A stretch of 64,000 nt of DNA from Pseudomonas fluorescens (GTDB lineage Bacteria; Pseudomonadota; Gammaproteobacteria; Pseudomonadales; Pseudomonadaceae). The first letter of the stretch is position 1, and every line of letters begins with the position of its first letter. Location: positions 1 to 64,000 of the forward strand of contig NZ_CABVHQ010000016.1 of assembly GCF_902497895.1 (NCBI RefSeq), written 5' to 3'. The translations under genes were made by a program, and so were the position numbers. The notes under the pieces are model-generated. The model was not told the DNA's origin and made no database searches. It worked only from the letters and a program-made list of their open reading frames with translations. Positions 429-35,202 of the stretch are shown here, piece by piece.

Positions 429-474
429 AGTGGAGCGGGTGAAGGGAATCGAACCCTCGTTATCAGCTTGGGAA
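429..474. repeat. attL: left 46-bp prophage attachment repeat
   Basis: Identical to 35127-35172. It contains the 3' half of tRNA-Gly(CCC), from the anticodon loop to the CCA end, reading on the minus strand. Identity stops at the first anticodon-loop base, so the left junction has lost the 5' half of the tRNA. Any protein read across it is a tRNA artefact. Confidence 0.95.
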
Positions 475-582
475 ACTATGGTGGGTGGAGTATCAGGGAG
501 ACACGTAAGGTATGCTTGTGTGCGTTTAAGTCAGCAGGATCAAGGCTTTGCGCAACGTGGTCAGTTTCATGCTGTTCCACCG

Positions 583-627
583 GTCGCCCCCATATTCCGG
601 CCTAACGGCCCCCAGATACGGCCCCCA
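583..627. promoter_or_regulatory. Candidate integrase arm-type sites, left end
   Basis: Three direct copies of a C5-A motif occur just upstream of int: GTCGCCCCCA (583-592), ACGGCCCCCA (605-614) and ACGGCCCCCA (618-627). The same decamer recurs at the right end (35061-35082) with similar close spacing. Position at both prophage ends next to the att cores suggests binding sites for the integrase arm domain. This is inference from arrangement only. The last copy ends immediately before the int start codon, so binding could also repress int. Confidence 0.5.
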
Positions 628-628
628 A

Positions 629-1834
629 ATGCTTACGGACAAACAGATCAGGGCAATGAAGCCTGAGGAACGGGAATACACGGTTTCGGATGGACGCAGT
701 GCGCGAGGCGAAGGCGTCTTGATGCTGCGAGTGCGACCAACCGGCACCAAGGAGTTTTATTTCCAGCGTCGACTGGATGGAAAGAAGATCAAAACCAAAC
801 TCGGTACGTGGCCAGCGATGAGCCTGACTGGCGCACGAGATCTATGCCGAGTGGAAAAAGAGGTGGTGATTGCCGCCGGGACCTTTCAGAACTTGCTGGA
901 TGCTTACACGAACAAGCTTGAGGGCGAAGGTGCTGCCTCTGCCTCAGACGTGAAGTGGTCGTTGAAGCATTACGTCGCTGACCCGTTTCCCAATCTGGCT
1001 TCACGCCCTGCTGCCTTGATCGGGCCTGGTGAGATCCGCGACATCCTGGCCAAGATGATCAATGCCGGTGTTACCACCTACTGCAATAGGGTCCGATCAC
1101 AGCTGCACGCCGCGTTCCAGGTTGGACTTGAGCAAGAGTTCAACCCCCGCAGCTACCAGAAGACAGCGTTGAAGTTCGGCCTGAACAGCAACCCGGTGAC
1201 CAGCGTGCCGGTTCAGGCCGACTGGGAACGTCCTGGTGATCGGGCACTATCCACCGACGAGTTGGCCAGGCTCTGGCAAATGCTGCCGGAACACTTAACG
1301 TTGGTTACATCTGAGTTGCTTAAGTTTCTGATTGCCTCAGGGGGACAGCGTCCGGAGCAGCTGCTCGCGAGTGAGCGTCGGCACTACTTCAAAGACCACC
1401 TGGTCATTCGGAACAAGAAGGGAAGGGAGGGGGAGCGGTCGCTGCATGCCGTGCCATACAACACGCTGATGCGCCGCAGTTTGAAGGTGATGGACGAGAT
1501 CTCCGAAACCAGCATCTACCCGTTTGAAGGCAAAGTGGAAGGGAAGGCCCTACACACGCAGTCGTTATCCCGAGCTGTCACTAAGTTGTACGGCCGCCAT
1601 ACCGACAAATTCAATGGACCGTTCACTTTGCGTGATATACGGCGAACCTGCAAAACCCTGATGGGTGTTGCTGGGTTGAGTAAGGAGGTTCGCGATCGAA
1701 TTCAGGGCCATGCATTCAGCGATGTCTCGTCGAAGCACTATGACCGTCACGATTACTTCAAGGAAAAGCAGCAGGGACTGCTGCGTTGGTCAGTGTGGCT
1801 GCACAAGAACGTGGTCAACGCCGAGCTGAAATGA
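629..1834 (+). CDS. int: Tyrosine recombinase, prophage integrase
   Basis: A 401-aa tyrosine recombinase that would integrate and excise the prophage at tRNA-Gly. The N-terminus (LTDKQIRAMKPEERE, then GVLMLRVRPTGTKEFYF) is the DUF4102-type arm-binding domain of P4-like integrases. The catalytic domain shows the first Arg in GGQRPEQLL, box II as TLRDIRRTCKT with the usual His replaced by Arg, the His of QGHAF, and the nucleophile Tyr371 in SKHYDRHDY. An upstream in-frame ATG at 548 is possible. The start at 629 was preferred because the protein then begins where the family begins and the extra 27 residues would lie over the repeat motifs. It is transcribed away from attL. Confidence 0.93.
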   Translation: MLTDKQIRAMKPEEREYTVSDGRSARGEGVLMLRVRPTGTKEFYFQRRLDGKKIKTKLGTWPAMSLTGARDLCRVEKEVVIAAGTFQNLLDAYTNKLEGEGAASASDVKWSLKHYVADPFPNLASRPAALIGPGEIRDILAKMINAGVTTYCNRVRSQLHAAFQVGLEQEFNPRSYQKTALKFGLNSNPVTSVPVQADWERPGDRALSTDELARLWQMLPEHLTLVTSELLKFLIASGGQRPEQLLASERRHYFKDHLVIRNKKGREGERSLHAVPYNTLMRRSLKVMDEISETSIYPFEGKVEGKALHTQSLSRAVTKLYGRHTDKFNGPFTLRDIRRTCKTLMGVAGLSKEVRDRIQGHAFSDVSSKHYDRHDYFKEKQQGLLRWSVWLHKNVVNAELK

Positions 1835-6113: not shown

Positions 6114-6359
6114 TTACTTCACTGCTTTGAGGCTAAGGCCAAGGCTTTGGGTGAGGGCGCCGATCAAGTGCTTTTGTGCGGCCATCACAGGGCTATTGGC
6201 GAGAATTGATCCGTGGCGCAGGCCATCAGGAATCAGTCGATATTGGTCTGCGTACCAAAGGTCATTGAGGCTGAGACGGTATTGCTCGCGTAGGTTGGCC
6301 AAGAGCGCTTGGGCCTGACCTGGTGTCAGTTTTGCGTTGATGTTCATGGCGTTTTCCAT
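6114..6359 (-). CDS. Hypothetical phage early protein
   Basis: An 81-aa protein, unrecognised, with helical content (TPGQAQALLANLREQYRL). The ATG at 6359 has GAGG seven bases upstream and was preferred over a TTG two codons earlier. It ends two bases before the primase start, so it belongs to the replication operon. Confidence 0.6.
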   Translation of the reverse strand: MENAMNINAKLTPGQAQALLANLREQYRLSLNDLWYADQYRLIPDGLRHGSILANSPVMAAQKHLIGALTQSLGLSLKAVK

Positions 6360-6431: not shown

Positions 6432-6797
6432 TTACGGAGCTGTTACGCGAAAACGACCGATGTCCGGTGCGTTGATGATGCGTTCGTAAATGAGGCTGAC
6501 AGGTACGGCCCATTGGGCACCGGTGACAGGATCAACAATTACTGTGTGGGTCGGTGTGCTGCTCTGGATGTTCAAACGCTGCCGATCGCGGATAGCGCTC
6601 ACCTCGCTGTTGGCCAGATGAACCATCTTTTCAGCGACCTGAGTGAGTACGTCGTAATCGGTTACCAGGTGATGCACTGCGCGGTCGAACAGTTGCTGAT
6701 CGTCGCCCAGGTGTTCGCACTGGTGGCGCTCAAGGAAGGAGAGGGCGGCGGCTTTGAGCATGTCCTGGTATTCCTTTACAGCAGGCAATGAGTTCAC
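6432..6797 (-). CDS. Hypothetical phage early protein
   Basis: A 121-aa soluble protein that I do not recognise. It begins with GTG, preceded by AGAGG at good spacing, and this GTG overlaps the TGA of the CII-like gene. The N-terminal half is helical (MLKAAALSFLERHQCEHLGDD, DYDVLTQVAEKMVHLANSEV) and the C-terminal half looks beta-rich. Position directly below the CII-like gene suggests an early regulatory or replication accessory role, not shown by any motif. Confidence 0.6.
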   Translation of the reverse strand: MNSLPAVKEYQDMLKAAALSFLERHQCEHLGDDQQLFDRAVHHLVTDYDVLTQVAEKMVHLANSEVSAIRDRQRLNIQSSTPTHTVIVDPVTGAQWAVPVSLIYERIINAPDIGRFRVTAP

Positions 6798-7273
6798 TGG
6801 GTAACCTCTGATTTCGATGCGTGCAACTGGATGACTGCAAGTACTTCCGCATGTCTGGCAGCCATATGCAGGTTGTCAGCTCTGAGGATGGCATCGGCTT
6901 CCGCTTGGTTGATCACGCCGTCTTCAAGAGCTTTGGCAATGATCTGGTCTACCGTCCCGCGTTTGGCTGCTGTCTGTACGCACCTGGTGTACAGCTCAAC
7001 ATTGTCCAGAGAGTCAGGCTCAGCGACCGGTACGAACATGCCGCCGTACATGGCTGCGACATATTCCGGTAAGTGGTTTGTGCCTGTTTCCTGCTCGAGC
7101 TGATAGATCTGAGCATCGGTCAACGGTCGGCTGTTGTTGTTCTCATACGCATGGTTGTCGAACTTCTTAAGCGGCAAACCAATCCGGGCCGCTGCGCATT
7201 CACGCCCACCTGGATAGCTGCAGATAATCGCGCTGACTACTTGTCGACGGGTATTTAGAACTGAGCTTTTCAT
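6794..7273 (-). CDS. CII-like / YmfL-family phage regulator
   Basis: A 159-aa protein. Residues 10-50 read VVSAIICSYPGGRECAAARIGL then FDNHAYENNNSRPLTDAQIYQLE, the pattern of YmfL (e14) and phage CII-like regulators: a divergent HTH that measures a 'PGG' turn and an E-N-R/N-L-Y segment. These proteins follow Cro in lambdoid and P2-like elements and regulate the early operon. The start at 7273 is preferred over 7303 because AGGGA lies upstream and it avoids overlap with the Cro-like stop. Confidence 0.7.
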   Translation of the reverse strand: MKSSVLNTRRQVVSAIICSYPGGRECAAARIGLPLKKFDNHAYENNNSRPLTDAQIYQLEQETGTNHLPEYVAAMYGGMFVPVAEPDSLDNVELYTRCVQTAAKRGTVDQIIAKALEDGVINQAEADAILRADNLHMAARHAEVLAVIQLHASKSEVTQ

Positions 7274-7302
7274 CTTCTGCTTTTCCCTGTGGCCCAGTGC
7301 CA

Positions 7303-7503
7303 TTACTGTTCGATCACGCCGTCTTTGATACCGAGCAGCACCGCGGCGCGATGTGCCTCCCCTCGGCGACCTTTTTTACGTCCGTTCAAAAGGTCGCTGA
7401 CCAAATTCTTGTTCAGTGCATGAATGCGACTGAATTCCGCAATGCTGATCCCTCTGCGATCCAGTTCCGTGCGGGCTTGCTCGGGTGTAAGGGTGGCGGG
7501 CAT
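7303..7503 (-). CDS. Cro-like DNA-binding protein
   Basis: A 66-aa HTH protein: TPEQARTELDRRGISIAEFSRIHALNKNL then VSDLLNGRKKGRRGEAHRAAVLLGIKDGV. The 'NGRKKGRRGEAH' loop and 'LGIKDG' ending are typical of small Cro-type regulators next to phage repressors. It is the first gene of the leftward early operon and divergent from the repressor gene. The 93-bp gap between them carries repeated half-sites. Confidence 0.75.
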   Translation of the reverse strand: MPATLTPEQARTELDRRGISIAEFSRIHALNKNLVSDLLNGRKKGRRGEAHRAAVLLGIKDGVIEQ

Positions 7504-32357: not shown

Positions 32358-32654
32358 CTACTCCAAGCGGCACCACCAAGACTGCGCGTAAGCGCAACCA
32401 TCTATGTATTCAATCCCACTCAACACAAAACCAGTCGGAGCCATGCCCGCCAGCGTTGCATCCAGCAGCCGGGGCAGGGCTTCTGGTGCCAGAGGCATGC
32501 TCGGAGCCACACGCGCAACATTGGAGCTGCGCCCGAGTTCGGTGCTTACTTCCGCCGCCACCAGGACGTCACCCCTGATCGACTGAAAACGCCGCCGCTC
32601 CTGCTTGTCCAGGGCGACGCCGAACCGGCGCATTGGGGTGACCAGTACAAGCAT
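32358..32654 (-). CDS. LexA-operon second gene, unknown
   Basis: A 98-aa protein starting MLVLVTPMRRFGVALDKQER and ending VLSGIEYIDGCAYAQSWWC plus four residues. GGAG lies 7 bases before the ATG. It is 13 bases downstream of the 84-aa gene, hence under the same LexA box. The pattern occurs in other Pseudomonas prophages as far as I recall, without known function. There is no membrane segment. Confidence 0.65.
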   Translation of the reverse strand: MLVLVTPMRRFGVALDKQERRRFQSIRGDVLVAAEVSTELGRSSNVARVAPSMPLAPEALPRLLDATLAGMAPTGFVLSGIEYIDGCAYAQSWWCRLE

Positions 32655-32667
32655 AAAGTTGCTCCGA

Positions 32668-32922
32668 TCAACCGTGGTTCAACGGGTTCTGCGACAGCGC
32701 TTCCACTGCGTATTCATAAGCCGCGTCGGCCTGCTCCAACAGGTCGCTCAAATCATGGCGATCGATCAGCTGCAGCCGGTGCAGCTCGTTGGCCTGCTCG
32801 AGCAGCGCGGCATGGTGCGCGTCGGGTTGCTCAAGCAGAGAGGCCTCGTCGTCCAGCAACGCTTGCCACTGCGCCAGAGCCTGCGCCTTGCGGTTGGCCT
32901 GTTCGTCGTTCTCGTTGTTCAT
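32668..32922 (-). CDS. LexA-operon first gene, helical protein (antirepressor candidate)
   Basis: An 84-aa, almost wholly helical, acidic protein (AQALAQWQALLDDEASLLEQ, HHAALLEQANELHRLQ, HDLSDLLEQADAAYEYAVEA). The start at 32922 is supported by AAAAAGAGG nine bases upstream. A perfect LexA box (32953-32968) overlaps its likely promoter. Not recognised by family. Its position, strand and SOS control match the tum gene of coliphage 186, an antirepressor, so it or the next gene may inactivate the repressor. Confidence 0.65.
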   Translation of the reverse strand: MNNENDEQANRKAQALAQWQALLDDEASLLEQPDAHHAALLEQANELHRLQLIDRHDLSDLLEQADAAYEYAVEALSQNPLNHG

Positions 32923-32952
32923 AGCTCGCATCCTCTTTTTGGCTGCTGATAA

Positions 32953-32968
32953 CTGTATACGCATACAG
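32953..32968. promoter_or_regulatory. LexA (SOS) box
   Basis: CTGTATACGCATACAG is a palindrome with the CTG-N10-CAG ends and TATA/ATA core of gammaproteobacterial LexA sites. It lies 30 bases before the start of the leftward operon at 32922. It would keep the operon off until DNA damage. Confidence 0.85.
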
Positions 32969-33224: not shown

Positions 33225-33641
33225 ATGCAGCGTGGTTGCACAGTGGCAAGCGGGGCGGTCACGGAAGGGGCGGCGCTGGAGCCCCTGATTTCATTGAGTG
33301 AAAAACGCGAAAGCGCGGGGTTTGGGCTGTTTTCAGATTTTGAATGGGTCACAACAGTTGAGATTTTCGGCTCAACGATAGAGCGCTTCAAGCAGTTGCA
33401 AGCCATGGCAGCAGGGCTTCTCCGTGATTTCAGTCGTTTTCACAACCTAGCCAAACACTCTGCACTACGTGGCTCGCCCGTTGTATTGATGCCACAGGAG
33501 ATGAAAATGAGGATGTGGAAGAGCATTTCACCGGCCGCAGTTGAGTGCGGCCAGTGGCTGTGCGGTACCAATCAGGTGAAAGGAAGCATCATCGTGATCG
33601 GGGAAATTTGCGGGCAGCGAAGAAATCCGGCCTTCTCGTAA
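33225..33641 (+). CDS. Doubtful ORF upstream of and antisense to the toxin end
   Basis: An open frame of 138 codons whose 3' end overlaps the toxin gene on the other strand by 70 bases. Composition is not absurd (SEKRESAGFGLFSDFEWVTT, VEIFGSTIERFKQLQAMAA), but there is no well-spaced ribosome-binding site and no family that I recognise. If it is not real, 33000-33570 is a gene-free stretch. Confidence 0.3.
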   Translation: MQRGCTVASGAVTEGAALEPLISLSEKRESAGFGLFSDFEWVTTVEIFGSTIERFKQLQAMAAGLLRDFSRFHNLAKHSALRGSPVVLMPQEMKMRMWKSISPAAVECGQWLCGTNQVKGSIIVIGEICGQRRNPAFS

Positions 33642-34090
33642 AGCCCCACCAACCGATCGTTAAGCGGATGGACTACGAGTGCTGTTGATGCAACTTCTTC
33701 AGCGGCGGCAAGCGCACGAAGAACGGCATCCTGGATCAGATCTAGCGACAGTCCGGTACCCTGGAGCGTCTTACACACCCCCATGCGACCCAGGACCGTG
33801 ATCGGGTGCTGTTGGGGCGAGTTGCGCTGCGCTTTCTTAGGTACGACATCTGCCCGCATTATCGTCCCGTTCGACAATGTGTAATAGCCGACGACGGTAT
33901 TAGTGCCTTTGATGCAAGTGACAAGCACGGTGGCGGTCTTAGACGCCTGGGCTTTGATAGCCTTTTTCTTCAAGTACTCGTTGATCGACTCCTCACCACA
34001 ATCGAAGGGATCCAGATTGTGGGTCTCATTCAGCTTTACCGGTGCACTCAGCTCCAGCGAGAGGGTCTGTTCAGCAGCTTCCGGACGCAT
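33572..34090 (-). CDS. GNAT-family toxin (TacT-like)
   Basis: A 172-aa N-acetyltransferase. Toxin-type features: NLDPFDCGEESINEYLKKKA near the start, the TVVGYYTLSNG strand, the acetyl-CoA loop GRMGVCKTLQGTGLSLDLIQ and the C-terminal LYEKAGF tyrosine. TacT/AtaT-like toxins acetylate aminoacyl-tRNA and stop translation. AAGGAG precedes the ATG. It overlaps the antitoxin gene by 43 bases, as is usual for the pair. Confidence 0.88.
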   Translation of the reverse strand: MRPEAAEQTLSLELSAPVKLNETHNLDPFDCGEESINEYLKKKAIKAQASKTATVLVTCIKGTNTVVGYYTLSNGTIMRADVVPKKAQRNSPQQHPITVLGRMGVCKTLQGTGLSLDLIQDAVLRALAAAEEVASTALVVHPLNDRLVGLYEKAGFLRCPQISPITMMLPFT

Positions 34091-34356
34091 GTGTTACTCC
34101 TTACGGGATTATTCTGTAAGGCTTGCTCGAAAGCGTCGAAGGCATCGTCAGCAAGGACGAACAGGCGTTGATCCAGAATGACTTCCTCTGCTTTTTTACA
34201 AGCAGCATCCAGGATGAAGCTGGTTCGATCACTCCCCGAAATAGCTGCGGCCACATCGATCAAGTCTCGTTTCTTAAAATCGACCCGCATGTTGAGCGGG
34301 ACGGATTTGGTTTTTTCTGTTGCAGCGGACTCCGCACGCAATAGATAACTAGTCAT
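34048..34356 (-). CDS. DUF1778 ribbon-helix-helix antitoxin
   Basis: A 102-aa antitoxin. VPLNMRVDFKKRDLIDVAAA forms the RHH DNA-binding unit, followed by SDRTSFILDAACKKAEEV and a C-terminal toxin-binding tail LADDAFDAFEQALQNNP. It would neutralise the GNAT toxin and repress the shared promoter upstream. A module of this kind in a prophage stabilises the lysogen. Confidence 0.88.
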   Translation of the reverse strand: MTSYLLRAESAATEKTKSVPLNMRVDFKKRDLIDVAAAISGSDRTSFILDAACKKAEEVILDQRLFVLADDAFDAFEQALQNNPVRSNTCVRKLLNRPSRWS

Positions 34357-35126: not shown

Positions 35127-35172
35127 AGTGGAGCGGGTGAAGGGAATCGAACCCTCGTTATCAGCTTGGGAA
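35127..35172. repeat. attR: right 46-bp prophage attachment repeat
   Basis: Identical to 429-474. It covers the 3' half of the intact tRNA-Gly from anticodon loop to CCA end plus two bases. Confidence 0.95.
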
Positions 35173-35202
35173 GCTGGAGTAATACCATTATACGACACCC
35201 GC
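35129..35202 (-). tRNA. tRNA-Gly (CCC)
   Basis: Reading the minus strand from 35202, GCGGGTGTCGTATAATGG starts the acceptor and D arm. The anticodon loop is TTCCCAA (anticodon CCC), the T arm contains GGTTCGATTCC, and the end is CCCGCTCCA with encoded CCA. It is 74 bases. The acceptor stem GCGGGTG pairs with CACCCGC. Sequence resembles E. coli glyU. It is functional despite integration, because the phage supplies or restores the 3' half. Confidence 0.96.

Follow-up and report, generated by a model that had tools for sequence, protein, structure and literature searches.

The described systems that come closest to the present locus are LexA-controlled antirepressor operons of prophages and SOS neighborhoods containing SRAP genes. 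According to the available passages of PMC3121763, the Gifsy repressors, with which DicA is grouped, are inactivated by small LexA-controlled antirepressors able to act on heteroimmune phages as well; antirepressor and DinI genes are paired, in one order or the other depending on the phage, and in both coliphage 186 and Gifsy a DinI-like protein accompanies the antirepressor in the LexA operon. For Pseudomonas, the accessible part of PMC4595014, citing Abella et al. 2007, describes PP3901, a LexA-controlled P. putida prophage gene needed for the induction of several prophages by DNA damage; other papers on Pseudomonas prophages are PMC2647930 and PMC12894663. Concerning SRAP, the available portions of PMC3765255 place its genes next to umuCD, imuAB-dnaE2 and dinB, and report them also in temperate phages. 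The gene pair considered below was not found described in the titles and first abstract lines of open-access papers on SRAP with LexA and prophages, or on YedK with plasmids or umuD, a coverage outside which most of the older phage work lies.

Prophage layout and LexA box of the operon

The DNA analyzed (the window) is a stretch of 64,000 nucleotides from Pseudomonas fluorescens, which holds a prophage that we take to be P2-like from its gene order. An exact repeat search set its bounds at two copies of a 46-bp att repeat (429–35172; Table 1). The operon of interest reads leftward, with 13 nt separating the ORF of the 84-aa protein from the downstream ORF of the 98-aa protein. A preliminary description, made from the sequence, had located it at the right end of the prophage. 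Given the position of the right att copy, the operon is indeed near that end, but it lies 2.2 kb inside attR and is not terminal. Genes for a GNAT acetyltransferase-like protein and a TacA-type antitoxin, probably a toxin-antitoxin pair, occupy positions 33572–34356 (minus strand), between the operon and attR.

Table 1. Coordinates of the prophage features in the window
Feature	Position	Strand	Basis or remark
Left copy of the 46-bp att repeat	429-474		Exact repeat
Phage integrase, left end of the prophage	548-1834	+	Pfam Arm-DNA-bind_3, 4.8e-11
CII/YmfL-like regulator, immunity region	6794-7303	-	Family matches
Small HTH protein (BcepMu gp16 family), divergent, immunity region	7303-7503	-	Family matches
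Short CI-like repressor, 116 aa	7597-7947	+	HTH_3, without S24; 24 kb from the operon
98-aa mostly beta protein, operon gene 2	32358-32654	-	PHROG phrog_5560, function unassigned
84-aa helical protein, operon gene 1	32668-32922	-	PHROG phrog_6137, function unassigned
LexA box CTGTATACGCATACAG	32953-32968		Pattern; kept in relatives
Right copy of the 46-bp att repeat	35127-35172		Exact repeat; overlaps tRNA-Gly(ccc)
tRNA-Gly(ccc)	35129-35202	-	Prophage integration site

The perfect LexA box that the preliminary description had placed before this leftward two-gene operon was confirmed at the coordinates of Table 1. It stops 30 nt 5′ of the ATG of the 84-aa ORF and matches 13 of the 16 positions of CTGTATATATATACAG, a Pseudomonas LexA-box consensus. 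The perfect pattern CTGTN8ACAG occurred three times in the window, and 68 times in the whole genome versus 36 for a reversed control pattern. Taken by itself, the pattern is weak evidence, and the box could be a chance or relict sequence standing before two ordinary, unregulated hypothetical genes. In line with this, boxes with at most one mismatch were no commoner in the window than in shuffles (21 found versus 21.6 expected). It is the conservation in relatives that leads us to judge the box as more than chance. The relatives were 80 loci of a genus sample, chosen from the upper part of the list of matches of the 98-aa protein over 398 Pseudomonas genomes, a choice that left out the weak tail of the list and some partial or second copies (e.g., G135 and the second place in G107). 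A perfect CTGTN8ACAG was present within 500 nt upstream in 63 of these 80 loci, while about 0.5 were expected from the background (once their upstream regions are set aside, the same loci hold 19 perfect boxes in 1.456 Mb); when one mismatch was also accepted, the count rose to 74. Besides, both ORFs belong to conserved families. A fortuitous box is thus very improbable, and we rejected it on account of the perfect boxes found before the operon in most of the relatives examined.

Two other sets of loci, obtained by other searches and partly from the same genomes as the genus sample, were considered within 150 nt upstream. Among the best 80 loci of the genome_contigs set, three had no recognised 98-aa ORF, and the other 77 comprised 55 with a perfect box, 6 with one mismatch and 16 with none. 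Among the best 80 viral-contig loci, the corresponding counts were 65, 5 and 5, the upstream region being too near the contig edge in the remaining 5. The claim that LexA controls the operon is therefore strongly supported by the conservation of the box, and DNA damage very probably induces the pair.

The two protein families and their genomic company

Homologues of the 98-aa protein were found in 100 of the 398 Pseudomonas genomes (E ≤0.001, partial copies counted). The C-terminal motif QSWWCR is conserved in the family, and 15 positions, including W93, W94 and C95, are invariant over 78 aligned members. The AlphaFold2 models consist of six strands plus one short helix for the 98-aa protein (mean pLDDT 93.6), and of four helices for the 84-aa protein (mean pLDDT 90.0). 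Neither window protein matched any Pfam family at E ≤1; in NCBIfam the 98-aa protein gave no match, and the 84-aa protein gave one far below the cut-off. Pfam searches with aligned relatives yielded scattered weak matches, the best of them at 0.0015 for 3 of 76 relatives, with DinI absent among the matches listed, and a PDB sequence search with both family profiles gave best E-values of 0.1 and 0.34, which are not meaningful. Fold searches with both predicted models, among which the viral fold library was queried with the 98-aa model alone, returned weak, non-significant matches within a common arrangement: the 98-aa model appeared closest to a PH domain (Z 6.1, rmsd 2.6, 74 aligned), together with RanBD domains, and the 84-aa model to a ribosomal chain (Z 8.8, rmsd 2.7, 79 aligned), presumably S20. 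The family libraries searched describe no function for the 98-aa family, and a LexA box precedes the gene in most of the copies examined.

The two genes recur together in either order. In the genus sample, an 84aa-type ORF was near the 98-aa gene in 53 of 80 loci, before it in 20 (the window order) and after it in 33. The order 84-98 was found in 28, the order 98-84 in 23 and the 98-aa gene alone in 26 of the 77 genome_contigs loci (from the best 80), while the best 80 viral loci comprised 78 with the order 84-98 and 2 with the 98-aa gene alone. Among phage records, a 98-aa homologue was accompanied by a box in the tailed phage Medea1 and the filamentous phage PfAC02b, and was without a box in the tailed phages PG1 and pAN; no tblastn match of the 84-aa protein was obtained in these records. 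The 98-aa family is also represented on three conjugative plasmids of P. syringae and P. cerasi. In PfAC02b (L017, 7955–8270) the homologue is diverged, lies directly after the LexA-type box and is close to the annotated repressor and Gabija genes of the phage. In one Pseudomonas contig (L155) the 98-aa gene occurs twice, at 6332 and 10001 (a distance of 3.7 kb), and a perfect LexA-type box lies 254 nt upstream of the first copy and another 32 nt upstream of the second; one of the copies is beside a divergent SRAP gene.

SRAP proteins covalently shield abasic sites in single-stranded DNA. Their genes, identified by Pfam PF02586 in the three ORFs tested, are recurrent neighbors of the 98-aa family. 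Nine of the 80 genus-sample loci have SRAP and the 98-aa gene transcribed away from each other, and the 104–116 nt that separate the two contain a single perfect LexA box. Of the 12 SRAP ORFs seen in 1.51 Mb, ten are no more than 2.5 kb from a 98-aa gene, with P ~6e-5 if the cases were independent, a value that overstates their independence because the nine divergent cases are partly related by descent. In four other cases (PG1, pAN, L159 and L164), SRAP is on the same strand and 2 nt upstream of the 98-aa gene, and no perfect box was found in the 500 nt before SRAP. The linkage depended on gene order: within 2.5 kb, SRAP was found in 8/23 loci of order 98-84 and 7/26 with 98 alone, but in 1/28 of order 84-98 (L195, at 2.1 kb), all from the best 80 genome_contigs loci, and in 0/78 of the 84-98 loci among the best 80 viral ones. 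No SRAP ORF was seen in the window.

Other genes related to DNA damage were also met. In two inspected plasmids of the three, the arrangement next to parAB is SRAP, a perfect LexA box and, reading away from it on the other side, the genes of the 98-aa protein, of a UmuD-like protein (S24, 116 aa) and of an 84aa-family member (81 aa), with PHROGs families assigned for one plasmid. The 84aa domain forms the N-terminal part of a protein of about 242 aa (phrog_19595, L355–L368) with a zinc-finger-like CxxC region at its C-terminus; a perfect LexA-type box stands at the 5′ end of this gene in 10 of 14 loci, and SRAP follows it in 7 of 14. In four Pseudomonas genomes (L379–L382), the chromosome encodes an 84aa paralogue whose gene overlaps that of an exonuclease III-like protein (Pfam Exo_endo_phos for the one tested) at the start of the latter. 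These four belong to 12 other 84aa-domain places in which no box was found within 700 nt. Finally, three relatives of the window phage devoid of the module (G472, G473 and G477) have a strict box about 72 nt before an S24 match that is outside the repressor; the frames of these second S24 proteins measure 164, 150 and 239 aa, respectively, and at least the first two would be UmuD-like by frame size.

Distribution of the pair with respect to the phage repressor

The CI-like repressor of the window had been described as an HTH with a short tail and no S24 domain, and this proved correct: Pfam gave HTH matches only, followed by the short tail, and an S24 profile built in-house from 7 sequences found no match in the window at E ≤1. 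Below the respective cut-offs, the protein resembles RstR and DicA (DicA 9.5e-6). Repressors of this type, compared in far-end loci L388–L429, are highly divergent in their DNA-binding part. The C-terminal CI tails look alike in six window-type examples.

If the operon encoded an antirepressor for an uncleavable CI, the module should go with such repressors, but no clear association was seen. S24 matches were present in 4 of 42 long module-bearing viral contigs (those of at least 26.8 kb among the best 80 viral loci, to which four phage records were added), and in three of these four (G435, G439 and G441) the protein was an HTH-S24 in one frame. In phages Medea1, pAN and PG1, repressor-sized frames likewise encode S24 proteins. 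The module is carried by 17 of 39 contigs whose portal protein relates them to the window phage (those longer than 26 kb among the best 80 loci). It was found in 2 of the 5 with an S24 frame of at least 246 aa, in which the HTH was checked for G441 only, versus 15 of the 34 without it (Fisher P 1.0); with only five S24 repressors, this test is weak. A strict box accompanied the module in 14 of the 17 contigs, which means that the strict pattern misses some sites, and no strict box was found in 16 of the 19 contigs that lack both the module and a repressor-sized S24, although some of these contigs may be cut.

The sequences were also compared pairwise. Contigs L227 and L210 have 98-aa proteins 99% identical and 84-aa proteins 74% identical beside CIs that are 40% identical; in L227 and L213, the two operon proteins are 95% and 96% identical and the CIs 48%. 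Over the 22 of 40 far-end contigs with a window-type CI, the other 18 being left out, the rank correlation with CI identity was 0.43 (98-aa protein) and 0.47 (84-aa protein), and that between the two operon proteins was 0.72 (231 non-independent pairs in each case). The correlation with CI is moderate, and the operon proteins track the repressor sequence only loosely.

Interpretation and comparison with known systems

The reading that we favor, with a probability of roughly 0.5, is that Pseudomonas mobile elements carry the pair as cargo, in the form of an undescribed DNA-damage cassette under SOS induction. LexA would silence the operon during lysogeny and DNA damage would induce it. The two proteins, one with a beta domain (98 aa) and one helical (84 aa), would then work together on damaged or single-stranded DNA, or in SOS tuning, to the benefit of the element or the host rather than as a repressor-specific induction key. 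As far as sequence comparison goes, what is observed is a conserved box, a pair conserved in both gene orders, its presence in unrelated phages and in plasmids, and neighbors related to DNA damage; this neighborhood is company, not function. Several observations count against the cargo cassette: the SRAP linkage is confined mostly to other gene orders, the identity of the operon proteins correlates moderately with that of CI, the fold matches are weak, and neither a perfect box in the 500 nt before the co-directional SRAP genes nor any box within 700 nt of the 12 other 84aa-domain places was found. More tentatively, the two proteins could be undescribed parts of a mobile, LexA-controlled lesion-tolerance system together with SRAP, the UmuD-like protein and, in the chromosomal branch, exonuclease III, although we give this narrower proposal less credit. 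The reason for phages and conjugative plasmids to carry such a system would be that their DNA is at times damaged or single-stranded. An SOS effector common to phages and plasmids would extend the Pseudomonas DNA-damage response by a new component.

Two other roles for the pair were weighed against the cargo cassette, and both seem rather unlikely. One is the switch of the 186 and Gifsy kind, in which the 84-aa or the 98-aa protein would bind the short CI, perhaps through its C-terminal tail, and free the lytic promoter; this would account for the induction by damage of prophages with uncleavable repressors. The box lies outside the immunity region and the short repressor is weakly DicA-like, which agrees with such a switch, as do the swapped gene order that the window families share with the pairs of antirepressor and DinI and the action of small LexA-controlled antirepressors on the DicA-related Gifsy repressors (PMC3121763, available passages), the need of PP3901 for prophage induction in P. 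putida (PMC4595014, accessible part), the six similar CI tails and the correlations with CI identity. Set against it are the coexistence of the module with HTH-S24 repressors (G435, G439 and G441, and Medea1), its indifference to repressor type among the 39 relatives of the window phage, the scarcity of strict boxes in the relatives lacking both module and repressor-sized S24, the nearly identical 98-aa proteins (99% and 95%) beside very different CIs, the conjugative plasmids, and the failure of both families to resemble Tum or the Gifsy-2 gene after dinI. The preliminary description had proposed a Tum-like antirepressor of an uncleavable CI among the two operon proteins, and this is not supported by the distribution of the module over HTH-S24 phages and plasmids, nor by the repressor-type test. 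Its likelihood is lowered rather than annulled, since the CI tails are similar and Gifsy antirepressors act on heteroimmune repressors.

The other role, of about the same low likelihood, is that of a modulator of the SOS response or of host takeover, analogous to DinI/PsiB or to a cell-division inhibitor, which would tune RecA/LexA or hold the cell during induction. LexA control, small size and spread over unrelated elements, conjugative plasmids and a filamentous phage among them, are what would be expected from it, and the partner in the LexA operons of 186 and Gifsy is DinI-like according to the passages available of PMC3121763. The protein comparisons point away from it, with no Pfam match at E ≤1, no DinI among the matches listed for the relatives and no structural match of weight, and the SRAP, UmuD-like and exonuclease III-like neighbors suggest DNA processing rather than SOS modulation.

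Compared to the Tum operon of coliphage 186 (p95), the window operon is alike in being a LexA-controlled unit at one end of the prophage and outside the immunity region, with a phage repressor that lacks S24, and it differs in that the module is also found with S24 repressors and on plasmids. At the protein level, the second half of Tum is DinI-like (Pfam PF06183, 1.8e-17), while neither window protein matches DinI; no sequence similarity to Tum was detected, with an hhalign probability of 0.1 for both families, and their membership in the Tum family was rejected. The likeness to the dinI-antirepressor operon of the Gifsy prophages of Salmonella, taken from the available text of PMC3121763, consists of small LexA-controlled genes, a variable gene order and a DicA-related short repressor. 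Both families were dissimilar (probability 0.1–0.2) to the one Gifsy candidate compared, the Gifsy-2 gene after dinI, which was taken as the antirepressor from the gene order given in the same passages.

PP3901 of P. putida KT2440 is, like the window operon, a LexA-controlled prophage gene, and of the same genus; from what the accessible part of PMC4595014 states, it is a possible Pseudomonas precedent for the logic of an antirepressor role. The comparison with it was made by primers alone: none of the four published PP3901 primers matched with fewer than four mismatches in 285 loci, and one of them matched only two unrelated places in the 398 genomes. As to the SOS neighborhoods linked to SRAP (YedK/HMCES), the window copy differs from them in having no adjoining SRAP, and the portions available of PMC3765255 mention neither a 98-aa nor an 84-aa partner. 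The resemblance to them lies in the families to which the window pair belongs, whose members have SRAP and UmuD-like genes as neighbors and LexA boxes in many of these places.
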